A program made the translations under genes and the position numbers. Positions 7,050-21,482 of a stretch of DNA of 23,753 nt are shown piece by piece. The notes beneath the pieces were generated by a model, which made no database searches, had not been told where the DNA came from, and saw only the letters and a program-made list of their open reading frames with translations. The stretch comes from a virus, in the IMG/VR virus record IMGVR_UViG_3300017731_000057, positions 1 to 23,753 of that record; one strand, given 5' to 3'. The stretch's first letter is position 1; each line of letters starts with the position of its first letter.

Positions 7050-7227
7050 CGGCAATGGATTTACACAAAAAGAAATGCTTCAACTTATACTGGAAGGGCA
7101 ACAAGATATAAACAAACGCATAGATGAATTACATGAAAAGGTTAATCAGAAAATATCAAGACAAGAATTATCTGGATGGTTAGTTGCAATTTCTGCACTG
7201 GTGGTGTTAATCAATAACTTAATGTGA
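7036..7227 (+). CDS. XhlA-like membrane protein
   Basis: This 63-aa protein has a polar N-terminus, an amphipathic coiled-coil helix (about 12-40, LILEGQQDINKRIDELHEKV) and one C-terminal membrane span (GWLVAISALVVLINNL). This is the layout of haemolysin XhlA-type phage proteins that accompany holins. ATG 7036 is preferred over TTG 7018 because GGAA lies 6 bases before it and the upstream residues add nothing. The stop overlaps the GTG of the next gene. It could help membrane permeabilisation. The family call is by layout only. Confidence 0.5.
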   Translation: MTSHNGNGFTQKEMLQLILEGQQDINKRIDELHEKVNQKISRQELSGWLVAISALVVLINNLM

Positions 7228-8927
7228 AAAAGTTATTAGCTGTTGTAGCTTCAGTATTATTAATAGCTACTCCTGTATATGCATATCATACTGAAACACA
7301 GACACCTTATGGTATAAACATATCTGTTGATAATGAAACAGGAGAGATAGAACTTACTTGGCAAGAAAGTGATGCGTTAGAAGTTAATCCACCTGAGTAC
7401 TATAGGTTATTTTTTGGTGATGATGACCAAGCAGCAGACTTCTCTATAGATACTAGCTTTGGTTTCAATGAAGCATTGTCCTGGAGAACTTATTACTTTA
7501 CTCCTGCATTTATAGATGAGAAATTTGAAACAACAACACTTACATTCTATGCAAAGATACAAGCAAGAAATGACACAGGTAGTACAGTTAGTGACTTTAC
7601 AGCAGTAGTTAGTGTACAATATGATTATGATTATGTACCTAATACAACGACATCTAGTTCGTCAACAACAACGCCCACCACGTTACCTGCGGCAGAAGAT
7701 GTGGTCGAAGATAACATTACTACGTACCTTGCTTGGGACGAATATGGATGTCCACATCCGAACAATCCGTTATCGTATAAACAATATCTTGAAGCGGTAG
7801 AGAGTGGAGATTGGTTTGGATATCAACCCGATGATTGCACTAACGTACCTGATGTTATTACTATTATTATCGAGGAAGAAGAAGATTTAGATGAGCTGGA
7901 CGAAGAGATACTTGGAGATGACACCTTACCAGAGGAAGATATTTTTATTGAAGAGGAAGTTATTGAGCTCACGGAAGAAGAAATAGCTGCTATTGAAGCT
8001 GAAGAACTAGATGCTGAAGAAGAATTACTTATACTTGAGGAGTTAGAAAATAGTGTAATTATTCTTGAGGATTTATCTGAAGAAGAGATACAAGAGTTTG
8101 TAGATGTCATACAGGAAATAGAAGATACTATTGAGATTATAGAAATTGTAGAAGAGATTATAGAATTAGATGTACCTGATGATATAATATTAATAATAGA
8201 GGAGGAAGTACTTGAAGAAGAAATTATCATTGATGAGACTGATGAGGAGATTTTGGATGAGCCAATACAGGAAGATGTTAAAGAGGCAGAAGATTTAACT
8301 GAAGAAGAAGTAGCTGTTGAAGTTGCTGAAATTGAAGAAGCCATTAAAGAAATTATTGAAATAGAAGAGGATTTATCTAATGAGGAAATTGAAGAAGCCA
8401 TCGAAGTATATGTGCAAGAACTCCCACCCGAAGAAATTGTAGAAGTACTTGAAGAAGTTAATGATGTCGGTGTTCAAAATTTAGAAGATGTATCTGAAGA
8501 GGTACAAGAAGTTATACAAGCAGTAGTTGAAGAAGCTATTGAAGATGTTGAAGAACTTACAGAAGAACAAGTTGAAGTTGTTGCTGAAGTATTACAAGTT
8601 GAAGCTGAAGACGTTGCTATTATTGCAGAGTCTATTAAATCAGATGAAGTAATAGCTGAAGCAGTAGAAGAATATATAGAAAGAGCTGTAGATAACTCAG
8701 ATGTAGAGAATTACACTCTTGCTGATGTTGTCACAGAAGTGCAATATGAAGCATTCATAGAAAATCCAATAGAAGTGTTTATTGATTTAAACATAGAAGA
8801 TATCAATATTACTGACATAGGTAATGACATGACACAAGACCAAAAAGAAAAAGCTCAAGAAGTTGTAGTTCCAGTTATTTTGACTAGAATAGCTACAATG
8901 GCATCCTTTATATTTAGGAGAAGTTAA
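7224..8927 (+). CDS. Secreted, extremely acidic repeat protein with FN3-like domain
   Basis: This 567-aa protein starts at GTG 7224, overlapping the previous TGA. A clear signal peptide occupies residues 1-20 (basic MKK, hydrophobic core, VYA cleavage end). An FN3-like beta domain follows (about 30-135, IELTWQES and YYRLFFG). Next comes a Ser/Thr/Pro linker (about 139-157) and a small segment with two cysteines (about 176 and 204). Residues about 210-545 are almost entirely Glu/Asp/Ile/Val/Leu helices with recurring (L/V)(T/S)EEE-type starts. The last 20 residues are hydrophobic and end in RRS, like a membrane anchor. The function is unknown: surface or periplasmic, perhaps structural, ion-binding or exclusion-related. 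Confidence 0.6.
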   Translation: MKKLLAVVASVLLIATPVYAYHTETQTPYGINISVDNETGEIELTWQESDALEVNPPEYYRLFFGDDDQAADFSIDTSFGFNEALSWRTYYFTPAFIDEKFETTTLTFYAKIQARNDTGSTVSDFTAVVSVQYDYDYVPNTTTSSSSTTTPTTLPAAEDVVEDNITTYLAWDEYGCPHPNNPLSYKQYLEAVESGDWFGYQPDDCTNVPDVITIIIEEEEDLDELDEEILGDDTLPEEDIFIEEEVIELTEEEIAAIEAEELDAEEELLILEELENSVIILEDLSEEEIQEFVDVIQEIEDTIEIIEIVEEIIELDVPDDIILIIEEEVLEEEIIIDETDEEILDEPIQEDVKEAEDLTEEEVAVEVAEIEEAIKEIIEIEEDLSNEEIEEAIEVYVQELPPEEIVEVLEEVNDVGVQNLEDVSEEVQEVIQAVVEEAIEDVEELTEEQVEVVAEVLQVEAEDVAIIAESIKSDEVIAEAVEEYIERAVDNSDVENYTLADVVTEVQYEAFIENPIEVFIDLNIEDINITDIGNDMTQDQKEKAQEVVVPVILTRIATMASFIFRRS

Positions 8928-18457: not shown

Positions 18458-19513
18458 CTATACATCTTCCAATTTTACTAGATATTCTGCTGTTACGCCA
18501 GTACCTGCCTTACAAAATAGTAACCATTGACATGGTCTACCCATGCTAGCTAACTGTTCTAATGCATATGTATTGTAACTTTCAGTACTACCATTAACCC
18601 ATAACCTTATATCATTAAGATACATTGTTGTAGGTGTATGAAAATGGCCTGCTACAGCGTTGTCAAAGTCTGGCATAAGACCATTAGCTGCTAATGTTTT
18701 CCAACCTTGTAGCTTCTTACCGAAACCATACCATGGAAATCCACTAAAACCTCTCACATTGTCTCCGTGCCACAATAAAAACTTACATTCTTTACCTAAA
18801 TCAGCTATGTCGAACCAATGATTGTCTCCTGTACTGTCAGGTATTGTAAATTTTATACGCTTTTCATCTCTAAATACCATCTTCATGATGTTACCTAGCA
18901 TCCTATCAGCGTTAGAATCTGGATGATAGTCTTTACGACTACGACCACCTAAATGGCCATGATTACCTATAACCCAATGAACATCTACTTCATTAAAGTT
19001 AGCAAGTAATATATCAAAGAACTTACCTATAATTCTAGGCCCATCAACTGTTACTTGTTTGTATAAGCTGCTGTCAATTAAATGTGATTGGCCTGGAAAT
19101 ATTAATTCACCTTCTATAATATCTCCAACTGCAAACACTGCAACTTTATTAACAGGATGAGATTGTCTTTGTACATTAGTAATGTCAACTATCTTTTTAG
19201 CATAAGCTATTACTCTTTCTTCTGCTACTTCTGTATTGTAATCAGGTGTAACTTTAGCAAGTTGTATGTCACTTAATACTGCTATGGCTATTTCTTCATC
19301 CTTAGTCTTCTTTAAGTTAGAAGGTTTAGGTATTGAAGGTTTGTCCCATGTTCTTAAGTTAGCTGATACTGCATCATATACTGCATCAACCATCTCTTCT
19401 TTTTTATTCTTTGACTTCTCAAGTTTTTTTAAAAGATTTAAGTTATCTTTTTTTAAATCTTGAATAACTTTAGATTCAACTTCAGCCATTAAGCTATCAA
19501 TATCTTTAGACAT
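18458..19513 (-). CDS. Calcineurin-like metallophosphoesterase
   Basis: After an N-terminal coiled coil (about 1-45), this 351-aa protein has the metallophosphoesterase motifs in order: SDIQL (81-85), GDIIEGE (130-136), GNHGH (183-187), WHGD (248-251) and GHFHTP (289-294). They bind two metal ions for phosphodiester hydrolysis. The usual Asp-x-His of motif I is Asp-x-Gln here (Gln84), a variant I have seen in other phage members. Phage relatives are usually taken as SbcD-like nucleases, but no Rad50/SbcC partner lies nearby. It overlaps the HTH gene by 8 bases, suggesting a joint role on DNA. Confidence 0.75.
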   Translation of the reverse strand: MSKDIDSLMAEVESKVIQDLKKDNLNLLKKLEKSKNKKEEMVDAVYDAVSANLRTWDKPSIPKPSNLKKTKDEEIAIAVLSDIQLAKVTPDYNTEVAEERVIAYAKKIVDITNVQRQSHPVNKVAVFAVGDIIEGELIFPGQSHLIDSSLYKQVTVDGPRIIGKFFDILLANFNEVDVHWVIGNHGHLGGRSRKDYHPDSNADRMLGNIMKMVFRDEKRIKFTIPDSTGDNHWFDIADLGKECKFLLWHGDNVRGFSGFPWYGFGKKLQGWKTLAANGLMPDFDNAVAGHFHTPTTMYLNDIRLWVNGSTESYNTYALEQLASMGRPCQWLLFCKAGTGVTAEYLVKLEDV

Positions 19514-19751
19514 TGTTATCCCTTTCTAGCTTTTGTAAGTATCTTCTTATTGCAGATTCAGATATTTCTATACCAAATTCATCATGCAATAACCTATGTA
19601 CTACATAAGGTCTCATCTTTATTTTCTTTTTTACTATTCTATCTTTTAAAGCAATCCAAAAAGGTTCTGCTTCTGGAGTAATTCTATCCTCAACATAGTT
19701 ACCTTTCTTTCCATGCTCTGCTTCATTAAGTAGTTCATCTATATTTGTCAT
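19506..19751 (-). CDS. HTH DNA-binding protein
   Basis: The 81-aa product has an acidic N-terminus and a helical C-terminal half: RPYVVHRLLHDEFGIEISESAIRRYLQKL (47-75), two helices with a G-I-x-(I/V)-S turn and a recognition-type helix. There is no Shine-Dalgarno sequence. A TATAAT box 6 bases before the ATG suggests leaderless transcription. It heads an operon with the metallophosphoesterase. It may regulate that operon or guide the enzyme to DNA. A small-terminase-like role was considered but lacks support. Confidence 0.55.
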   Translation of the reverse strand: MTNIDELLNEAEHGKKGNYVEDRITPEAEPFWIALKDRIVKKKIKMRPYVVHRLLHDEFGIEISESAIRRYLQKLERDNNV

Positions 19752-19763: not shown

Positions 19764-19801
19764 GTTGATTTAAAAAAAATACAAGTAAATATAAAAGAAA
19801 A

Positions 19802-19952
19802 TGGTGGAGGTGGGAGGAGTTTAACCTCCGTTAGCATAATATCAACGGGTAGTTGTTTATGCTCTAACTTGGACACCCCCATCCACAGATGGAATACCGT
19901 GCTTAAGGTCGGAAAGGAGTACAACCCACTGTTGCCAGTTGCACGGTACCCC
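19802..19952 (-). ncRNA. Structured RNA with tRNA-like 3' domain (candidate)
   Basis: The gap of 216 bases between two - strand genes is structure-rich. 3' part, read on the - strand: GGGGGTG (19880-19874) pairs with CACCTCC (19812-19806). Inside, a long hairpin joins 19868-19857 with 19839-19830 (10 bp, two-base bulge), capped by CAAC/GTTG. Next comes GGAGG-TTAAACT-CCTCC (19829-19813), a 5-bp stem with a 7-base T-loop-like loop, then A and CCA (19805-19802). The closing stem can extend and is followed by a T-rich run. 5' part: TACCGTGC/GCACGGTA (19948-19941 with 19902-19895), with GGGGTAC/GTACTCC (19952-19946 with 19922-19916) as a competing pairing. Two G.U pairs here would be A.C mismatches on the other strand. 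Confidence 0.5.
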
Positions 19953-19967
19953 TAATTTTCCTTCCTT

Positions 19968-21482
19968 CTATTGTAGCTGATTCAGTTGATAAGCAAACTC
20001 TTTTACTTCATCAACATCAGCTAGCCTAGTAATTCCTGAACGCTTACATTGTTCAATACAATCTTTTAATAAGTTATTTGAGTTTGAATTATGTAATCCA
20101 AAGACATACATATCACTAACCCATATTCTTTTAGGTGGTTGTTTAGCCAGCCAAGCTAACGCTGGGCCATCAACTAAGTTACCACCGCCAGTCCATCTAT
20201 CTAGATAGTCTTGATTAACTCTCTTACCATTTTGACCAATGATACGCAATGAACCTGTTTCCCAATCCTGACCTCTATCGTTATACATAGCAATAGTAAC
20301 TGCAGGTAACATCTGCATTATTTCTAGTATATCTTCGCCACTAAAGGACATAGAACCTGACGCATCTATTAGTATTGTTCCACCATATACTCTTTGTTTT
20401 TGTTTGAATACTTTTTTATCCACACACCAACGATTCATATACTTTGGATTTACACCGTAATCCATAGGCCTGTATTCTCTACCACCTTTAATTTTAGATT
20501 GTAGATTTACTTCAAGATGAGGTTTGAATATTTGCATCTTACCCCACTTACCTGCCATATCATTTAGATTAGGTTTATAATTCATATTACTATTACTCTG
20601 AGATGTCATTTCAAACATCTGCTCTGCATTTCTAGACATTAATTCATCAAGTGAAGCTATATCATCACCTTCACCTTCTGAACTGTTACCACTTGTTTGC
20701 TTATTAGCACTATTAGCTTTTTGTTTAGCTAATGCAGCTTTTCTGGCTTGTTCAAGAACCTGTTCCTCTTTAGGTGGTTCACTAAACTGTTCCATAAGTT
20801 TAAACAAGATTTTAGCTGCATTTCTAGTTTTAATATACTTACTAGGTTTTTTATAATAACCTCTAGTATATGTAATTCTTTCCCATAAATTATTTGCTTG
20901 TTTAAAGCACCAATTTATTTGATTGAGTCGCAAATTAGTTAATGCTTTTGCTGAGTCCCTAGGTATTTCTCTTAGGTCTTCAAATATTTCTATCAAAGAT
21001 GCAAACTCTTTACTAGCTGGCCTTCTTCCAGAATAATAACTATTGCTATTAGTTTCTATAGGTGCCATACATATCATAATATATGAAACTATATCGAACA
21101 AAGAACTATTATAAAATAAATCTATAGCTCTTTCTTCATGAATAGGTTGACATACAACCCAATCATCTAGATATATATCTTTTATACCTAAGTTATAGTT
21201 AATACGAATTTCTTCACATATCTCAATGCATTTTTCATTCTCATTCTCTTTGAGTTTACCTACAGTTTTAGGACTCCACTTAGCATGGCCAAGTTCATGT
21301 CTTCTAATTTGTTTGTTATGGTTTGAACCACATAATGAACATAGTTCATCATCTGTAGGAACATACATTTCATGAGATAGAGTAGAAGTTCTAGGTTGAT
21401 TTGCATCATCATAGATTTTCCATGGTCCCTCCCCAGAAGCTATTTCTGGAAAGGGTACCTTACTATTCTTCTTCTTGTACAT
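19968..21482 (-). CDS. CobT/DUF2201-like protein with HExxH and VWA domain
   Basis: The N-terminal part of this 504-aa protein has CSLC (48-51), RRHELGHAKWSP (60-71), a metallopeptidase-type HExxH, and CEEIRIN (89-95), a possible third ligand. A helical middle (about 130-235) is followed by a Lys/Gln/Ser-rich linker (about 245-300). The C-terminal von Willebrand A domain carries TILIDASGSMS (369-379), the MIDAS DxSxS, with later WTGGG and WVSD elements. This matches predicted metallopeptidase/VWA proteins that work with MoxR-type ATPases, which act as chaperones remodelling target complexes. It overlaps its ATPase gene by 20 bases. The target is unknown; cobalamin synthesis is unlikely without chelatase genes. 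Confidence 0.7.
   Translation of the reverse strand: MYKKKNSKVPFPEIASGEGPWKIYDDANQPRTSTLSHEMYVPTDDELCSLCGSNHNKQIRRHELGHAKWSPKTVGKLKENENEKCIEICEEIRINYNLGIKDIYLDDWVVCQPIHEERAIDLFYNSSLFDIVSYIMICMAPIETNSNSYYSGRRPASKEFASLIEIFEDLREIPRDSAKALTNLRLNQINWCFKQANNLWERITYTRGYYKKPSKYIKTRNAAKILFKLMEQFSEPPKEEQVLEQARKAALAKQKANSANKQTSGNSSEGEGDDIASLDELMSRNAEQMFEMTSQSNSNMNYKPNLNDMAGKWGKMQIFKPHLEVNLQSKIKGGREYRPMDYGVNPKYMNRWCVDKKVFKQKQRVYGGTILIDASGSMSFSGEDILEIMQMLPAVTIAMYNDRGQDWETGSLRIIGQNGKRVNQDYLDRWTGGGNLVDGPALAWLAKQPPKRIWVSDMYVFGLHNSNSNNLLKDCIEQCKRSGITRLADVDEVKEFAYQLNQLQ

Follow-up and report, generated by a model that had tools for sequence, protein, structure and literature searches.

The question raised by this locus is what kind of RNA is encoded in the gap between two phage genes, and what such an RNA could do during infection. 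The gap lies in a 23.7-kb virus record with 33% G+C, which we analyzed over its whole length of 23,753 nt (the window). An earlier note, made from the letters alone, had described a single structured RNA at 19802-19952. The structure is real and lies on the - strand, but it comprises two RNAs rather than one, which we call RNA A and RNA B. Read along the - strand, the order is VWA-type gene, RNA A, RNA B, a gene for an 81-aa protein, and a phrog_284 phosphoesterase gene, with the following features:

19968..21482, - strand: upstream gene, 504-aa protein, phrog_33218 (function unknown; PHROG match, no Pfam match)
19952-19891, - strand: RNA A (fold and alignment)
19912..19921, - strand: P3 loop of RNA A, UACUCCUUUC, anti-Shine-Dalgarno-like (UCCUUUC in 21/21 alignment rows)
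19880-19802, - strand: RNA B (G1 = 19880, A76 = 19802)
19874..19880, - strand: acceptor stem, 5' strand GGGGGUG, G3 at 19878 (7/7 pairs with 19806-19812, G3.U70 included)
19869..19873, - strand: D-loop-like linker UCCAA, D-stem absent (UCCAG in the other eight subtypes)
19830..19868, - strand: P2-like hairpin replacing the D and anticodon arms (fold, subtype alignment)
19813..19829, - strand: T-arm, 5 bp and 7-nt loop UUAAACU (double-sided changes at 3/5 pairs across subtypes)
19806..19812, - strand: acceptor stem, 3' strand CACCUCC, U70 at 19808
19802..19805, - strand: A73 (19805) and encoded CCA (19804-19802; CCA encoded in 3/9 subtypes)
19506..19751, - strand: downstream gene, 81 aa, no family match
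18458..19513, - strand: "exonuclease" family phrog_284 gene (related records are calcineurin-like phosphoesterases)

We take the phrog_33218 protein to be VWA-type on the strength of its DASGSM motif. Neither this protein nor the window protein encoded at 7224-8927 has relatives among annotated phages at E 1e-5, and blastn with the locus as query found just two short archaeal-virus matches (E 0.1-0.3) in 50,697 phage records. The phosphoesterase search returned 43 records, mostly from haloarchaeal viruses. Its top two matches (a Streptomyces phage and an Actinomycetia phage), together with a relative of the VWA gene (L078) that sits in the Actinomycetota MAG RS345, tentatively suggest an actinobacterial host.

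Fold, strand, and covariation of RNA B

Folded as the - strand, the 181 nt at 19790-19970 reach -66.1 kcal/mol (z -5.05; 0/200 shuffles equal it), whereas the + strand of the same 181 nt has a z of only -1.57 (11/200 shuffles equal it). Given this difference, the earlier call of a - strand transcript is supported. The 79-nt RNA B folded alone has a z of -3.89, again equaled by 0/200 shuffles.

From 5' to 3', RNA B consists of GGGGGUG, a 5-nt linker, a 39-nt hairpin, the T-arm, CACCUCC, A, and CCA. The individual parts that the earlier note had picked out were all found, namely the stem GGGGGTG (19880-19874)/CACCTCC (19812-19806) on the - strand; the T-arm GGAGG-TTAAACT-CCTCC (19829-19813) followed by A73 and CCA; a T-loop with one deviation from TTCRANY (C56 -> A here); and one hairpin (19868-19830) in place of the D and anticodon arms, as seen in the - strand fold. 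Mutually exclusive stems had also been claimed upstream. The window clade does have them (GGGGTAC with GTACTCC); on inspection, however, the complement is absent in clades lacking RNA B, and these alternative stems are probably incidental.

The fold of RNA B has support from compensatory changes. The alignment holds nine distinct subtypes and 15 pairs (acceptor, T-stem, and the first three hairpin pairs), and pairing is standard in 135/135 cells. Covariation is 0.289 versus 0.103 in shuffled alignments, with 0/500 shuffles as high, and the cells with double changes are likewise matched by 0/500 shuffles. Two simpler counts are not extreme: four pairs are changed on both sides, a number reached by 38/500 shuffles, and the pair-type count is attained by 195/500. 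Across the nine subtypes, 6/7 acceptor pairs are invariant.

Resemblance to the tRNA-like domain of tmRNA

RNA B shares with bacterial tmRNA (RF00023) a G3.U70 acceptor, A73, a D-loop region without a stem, a P2-like helix, and the T-arm. Bacterial tmRNA also has a tag frame and pseudoknots, whereas RNA B has no tag reading frame and no pseudoknot or room for one, the 39-nt hairpin being all that lies between its linker and its T-arm. It is 79 nt long, compared with ~340 nt for tmRNAs of the putative host order. Because the message domain is missing, RNA B is not a complete tmRNA. With tRNA-Ala it shares G3.U70 (the alanine identity pair), A73, the T-arm, and CCA, but tRNA-Ala has a D-stem and an anticodon arm and RNA B has neither. 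An ordinary tRNA was rejected because these arms are missing and because ARAGORN called a gene neither in the window nor in any of 22 related loci. On inspection, RNA B and host-order tmRNAs both have 4 nt separating the acceptor from the D-loop GG, versus 10 nt in tRNA-Ala. In RNA B this step reads TCCA-GG in 8/9 subtypes but TCCA-AG in the window copy, and the D-loop motif GGUUUCGAC is absent throughout the window clade.

Covariance models separate the two possibilities more clearly. The RF00023 match spans positions 1-374 in 15/15 contigs bearing RNA B (30.2-52.4 bits; E 2e-12 to 2e-22 per contig), and 0/10 contigs lacking RNA B were matched. The lowest score (30.2 bits) belongs to the two contigs identical to the window, in which both ends of the model are matched and the middle is missing. 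The gathering score of 47 is passed by 5/15 contigs, with L008 (51.4) and L022 (52.4) above it and the window below; the other 10/15 would therefore be missed by standard annotation. Rfam at its gathering threshold found no family in the window, and under relaxed settings RF00023 gave 12.7 bits there (E 0.003, a partial match) and 23.9 bits in L009. The tRNA model gave 24.8-29.7 bits in 7/13 B-bearing contigs searched, one of them above threshold, and nothing in the remaining 6/13 (window, L008, and L022 types). It should be noted that RF00023 also picks out ordinary tRNAs (as much as 40 bits for host tRNA-Ala, and matches even in archaeal control genomes), so that its score alone is no proof and the contrast between the two models carries the argument. 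The two tRNA-Ala genes of MAG RS345, the putative host, show the opposite pattern, with 69-73 bits for the tRNA model and 35-38 bits for the tmRNA model. The likeness to the tRNA-like domain of tmRNA that had been proposed from the letters is thus borne out by the RF00023 match, the tmRNA-type 4-nt spacing, and G3.U70.

In 42 marine actinobacterial genomes we found 33 tmRNAs over the cut-off, and 30/30 examined share the acceptor GGGGGUG/CACCUCC with RNA B; no tRNA among those listed for genome G001 has it. This acceptor differs little from the general tmRNA consensus and is thus a weak pointer to host identity. SmpB was found in 35/41 genomes of the putative host order and in 0/19 phage contigs, fragments included. 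The strict mini-RNA pattern (see below) is absent from 396/396 genomes of the putative host phylum.

Occurrence among relatives

Relatives were gathered via searches with the VWA protein, which gave 36 loci whose DNA runs past the VWA stop. The earlier note had expected a genuine RNA to show compensatory changes in homologs and to keep its stems wherever the flanking genes stay intact. Compensatory changes are seen, but RNA B is at the VWA junction in 10/36 loci and missing there in 26/36, while the RNA A loop is kept in 36/36. This patchy presence beside a constant RNA A indicates that RNA B is an accessory module. Four of the 26 loci (L022-L025) have RNA B elsewhere; in the L022 and L025 types it precedes the VWA gene by ~1.6 kb. 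A separate contig, L165, carries RNA B as well. A search with the pattern GTGTCCAGG...CACCTCCAC returned 52 stretches, of which 13 are RNA B and 39 look like chance, without a T-arm. The pattern GTGTCCAGGT...GGTTCRANNCC returned 26 stretches; 14 were new, and by eye none of these was judged to be RNA B.

A wider set of viral RNAs

A pattern combining acceptor, D-loop, and T-loop found at least 120 stretches in IMG/VR, including at least 115 new loci. Full closure (7/7 acceptor and 5/5 T-stem pairs) is seen in at least 80 of these, and at least 88 reach 6/7 and 4/5 or better, compared with 0-3 closures in slid controls. Of the 115 new loci listed, 35 fail full pairing (several are tRNAs), and the 88 listed as partly or fully paired include several tRNA-Asp matches and one tRNA-Ala. 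A stricter pattern, which leaves the acceptor 3' strand and the outer three T-stem pairs free, found 37 stretches, and 37/37 close 7/7 and 5/5.

Pooling both patterns gave at least 78 distinct sequences, chosen for full pairing and excluding the window clade. All 78 listed pair G3 with U, although C at position 70 would pair too, and 77 have A at residue 73. Compensated variation is seen at acceptor pair 5 and T pairs 49-51, CCA is encoded in 26/78, and UCGA or CCGA follows shortly after GGU in 53/78 (a motif that the stricter pattern partly fixes). In one sequence, L250, the D region ACCAGGTTAG bridges the window clade and the remaining wider set. Viral RNAs with the shape of RNA B form a continuum that includes RNA B.

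Standard annotation overlooks many copies: ARAGORN, which made no call in the 22 related loci, called a tmRNA on 12 of the 78 listed wider sequences and a tRNA overlapping four. One of the four, L226, was rejected as a tRNA-Ala artefact and still stands in the counts, as do L328, which is doubtful, and L316 and L356, which retain the tmRNA-type D-loop. In a chosen sample of 16 wider loci, nine are over the Rfam tmRNA threshold. The best tmRNA match is 66-84 nt long in 19/20 larger contigs. The 123-kb contig of L231 (G473) holds both a full-length tmRNA (77588-77979, 392 nt) and a mini form (46486-46567).

Of 18 chosen neighbor proteins, 15 have PHROG matches and three have none. Among the families are portal, major head, head protease, helicase, endolysin, and exonuclease, a set typical of tailed phages. 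The L223 contig has a short stretch in common with Gordonia phages. Two mini-RNA queries against annotated phages matched full-length tmRNAs or tRNAs exclusively.

In 10 of the 78 listed wider sequences (L223, L228, L238, L245, L270, L281, L287, L341, L351, and L355, several apparently from one phage group), the upstream ORF stops 1 nt inside the mini-tmRNA, so that cleavage at G1 would leave the mRNA non-stop. We also noted a manA RNA (L296:4328-3940) 111 bases upstream of a mini-tmRNA, and Pistol ribozymes in L244 and L257.

Proposed function

With moderate confidence, we propose that RNA B is a tag-less tmRNA that acts as a dominant-negative blocker of host trans-translation. It would represent the tRNA-like domain of tmRNA, with a short hairpin substituting for the message-like domain. 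To the observed structure, conservation, and spread this adds four steps that we infer (excision, charging, SmpB binding, and inhibition). Host tRNA-processing enzymes would excise RNA B from its transcript during infection, the excised RNA would receive alanine, and the charged RNA would occupy SmpB and EF-Tu instead of host tmRNA. Having no tag, RNA B would be unable to finish ribosome rescue and would therefore inhibit trans-translation as a dominant-negative. The "decoy" suggested in the earlier note is probably right, although SmpB/trans-translation appears a likelier target than the CCA-adding enzymes named there. If the proposal is true, phages commonly hit the main bacterial ribosome-rescue pathway via a mimic RNA, and trans-translation would limit phage growth. 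Because RNA B is short and self-contained, the idea of a mimic is directly testable.

Several observations count against a tag-less tmRNA. The window copy of RNA B is the most diverged (lowest RF00023 scores, C56 -> A, D-loop G altered, and no evident compensation) and may be decaying. In addition, UUCGAC is missing in the window clade, the presence of RNA B is patchy, CCA is encoded in only 3/9 subtypes, and L231 carries a full-length tmRNA beside the mini form. Finally, subtype L025 carries A3-U70, with G3.U70 in the remaining 8/9 (the window included). A3-U70 should abolish recognition by bacterial AlaRS; as the inhibition reported for a similar molecule (see below) needs no charging, this subtype would also fit.

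This kind of RNA is already known. In the available text of PMC4131195, the ssrA of mycobacteriophage DS6A is described as "TLD only," and by that description it resembles RNA B in being phage-borne and in having little beyond the tmRNA tRNA-like domain. The same text states that a TLD-only-like molecule inhibits tmRNA strongly, whether chargeable or not, perhaps by titrating SmpB, and credits Mao et al. 2009; the excerpted text of PMC11915505 restates the inhibition for E. coli. Our proposal of inhibition leans on this one reported experiment, known through these two papers. The CDS-less plastid tmRNA of Mallomonadaceae (~65 bp) is, by its description in PMC11915505, also tag-less and of similar size, but plastid rather than viral. 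In a literature search that most subscription papers fell outside, DS6A was the sole phage TLD-only tmRNA found. Thus, the earlier label of a "novel phage RNA" stands in part: a TLD-only tmRNA had been reported in DS6A (PMC4131195), whereas the wide occurrence of tag-less tmRNAs in viruses, the present members, and RNA A look new. SmpB-like domains have been tied to anti-phage systems, as proposed for CoCoNuTs in the accessible part of PMC11090510, and a counter-defence role for an RNA B decoy is accordingly conceivable.

The broader claim, that tag-less tmRNAs form a class found widely in viruses and that many tailed-phage lineages carry a ~60-90 nt dominant-negative tmRNA disabling host trans-translation, we regard as evenly balanced between true and false. 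If true, this class would be an RNA counterpart to anti-defence proteins.

Alternative explanations

RNA B could instead be a processing signal, a tRNA-like mark cut by RNase P and 3' tRNA nucleases that splits the VWA transcript, with the excised RNA functionless. This would suit its intergenic position in the window clade and the upstream ORFs that end 1 nt inside the RNA in 10/78 listed wider sequences. We nevertheless think it unlikely, given that a processing signal needs no fixed acceptor, yet 6/7 acceptor pairs stay the same across subtypes, in contrast to the T-stem pairs; G3.U70 is retained in 78/78 listed wider sequences; and a tmRNA-type D-loop would be unneeded. Quite improbable, in our view, is a tag-less rescue factor serving the phage, which would add alanine onto stalled chains and pass the ribosome to another release pathway; we know of no such downstream release step. 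A rescue factor would account for G3.U70 being kept nearly everywhere though inhibition is reportedly independent of charging (PMC4131195), and the text available from PMC11915505 suggests that a mitochondrial tag-less tmRNA still benefits cells. However, the sole test of a similar molecule reported in the available text of PMC4131195 gave inhibition.

The earlier note had also offered a regulatory terminator, its closing stem followed by a T-rich run and a new promoter. The T-rich run is real and would give a U-rich tail 3' of RNA B in the window, and the closing helix can be extended through the CCA (UGG-A-UGGGGGUG with CACCUCCACCA). The promoter did not hold up, as the single promoter-like match lies below the shuffled mean of 2.4. 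We consider an intrinsic terminator whose closing stem resembles a tRNA by chance very improbable: a simple scan for a GC-rich stem with an immediate U-run finds none; on inspection, the U-tract is missing after RNA B in L025 and in the L165 contig and reduced to a short TTTCTT in L022; and the conservation of the T-loop, G3.U70, and the D-loop would be left unexplained. The regulatory terminator is weakly supported at best. It is hardly credible that RNA B is the remnant of an attachment site, left where a phage integrated at a tmRNA or tRNA gene of the host. As far as the excerpts of PMC10865867 go, mycobacteriophage integration sites often overlap such genes, with the 3' half of the gene lying within the shared attachment core. 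Unlike such a core, RNA B also has the 5' acceptor strand; moreover, its T-stems show co-variation from phage to phage, and the T-arm of the host-order tmRNAs examined is found in none of the subtypes. The terminator, ordinary tRNA, and attachment-site readings fit RNA B worse than a tag-less tmRNA does.

RNA A and other structured RNAs

All 36 loci have RNA A, a conserved three-way junction, on the downstream side of the VWA gene. The RNA A alignment comprises 21 rows (19 distinct sequences) and 20 pairs; both sides have changed in 18 of the pairs, and 90% of cells are paired. Covariation is 0.677 versus 0.254 when shuffled, with 0/500 shuffles as high. A GCAA loop sequence occurs in 17/21 rows, and the UCCUUUC loop resembles the 3' end of 16S rRNA. 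Rfam gave no match to RNA A at the gathering threshold in the window and ten relatives, and nothing convincing at a relaxed threshold. Our guess is that RNA A, at the 3' end of the VWA transcript, could be a 3'-end stabilizer or a regulatory RNA with a C-rich loop. The heptamer complementary to its loop, GAAAGGA, has two copies on the - strand; both lie inside ORFs, and a role for RNA A as a decoy of Shine-Dalgarno sites is therefore also a guess.

Further RNAs may lie nearby. Two distant relatives, L034 and L071, have a longer similar stretch (AATAGAGTGCA...GGAGA...GCAAC) after RNA A that may be one. In a second clade, an apparently structured RNA lies directly upstream of RNA B (L022:2200-2365 and the same region of L188), with alternative stems on inspection, GTGCTATC/GGTAGCAC versus TAGCACGCAGC/GTTGCGTGCTA.
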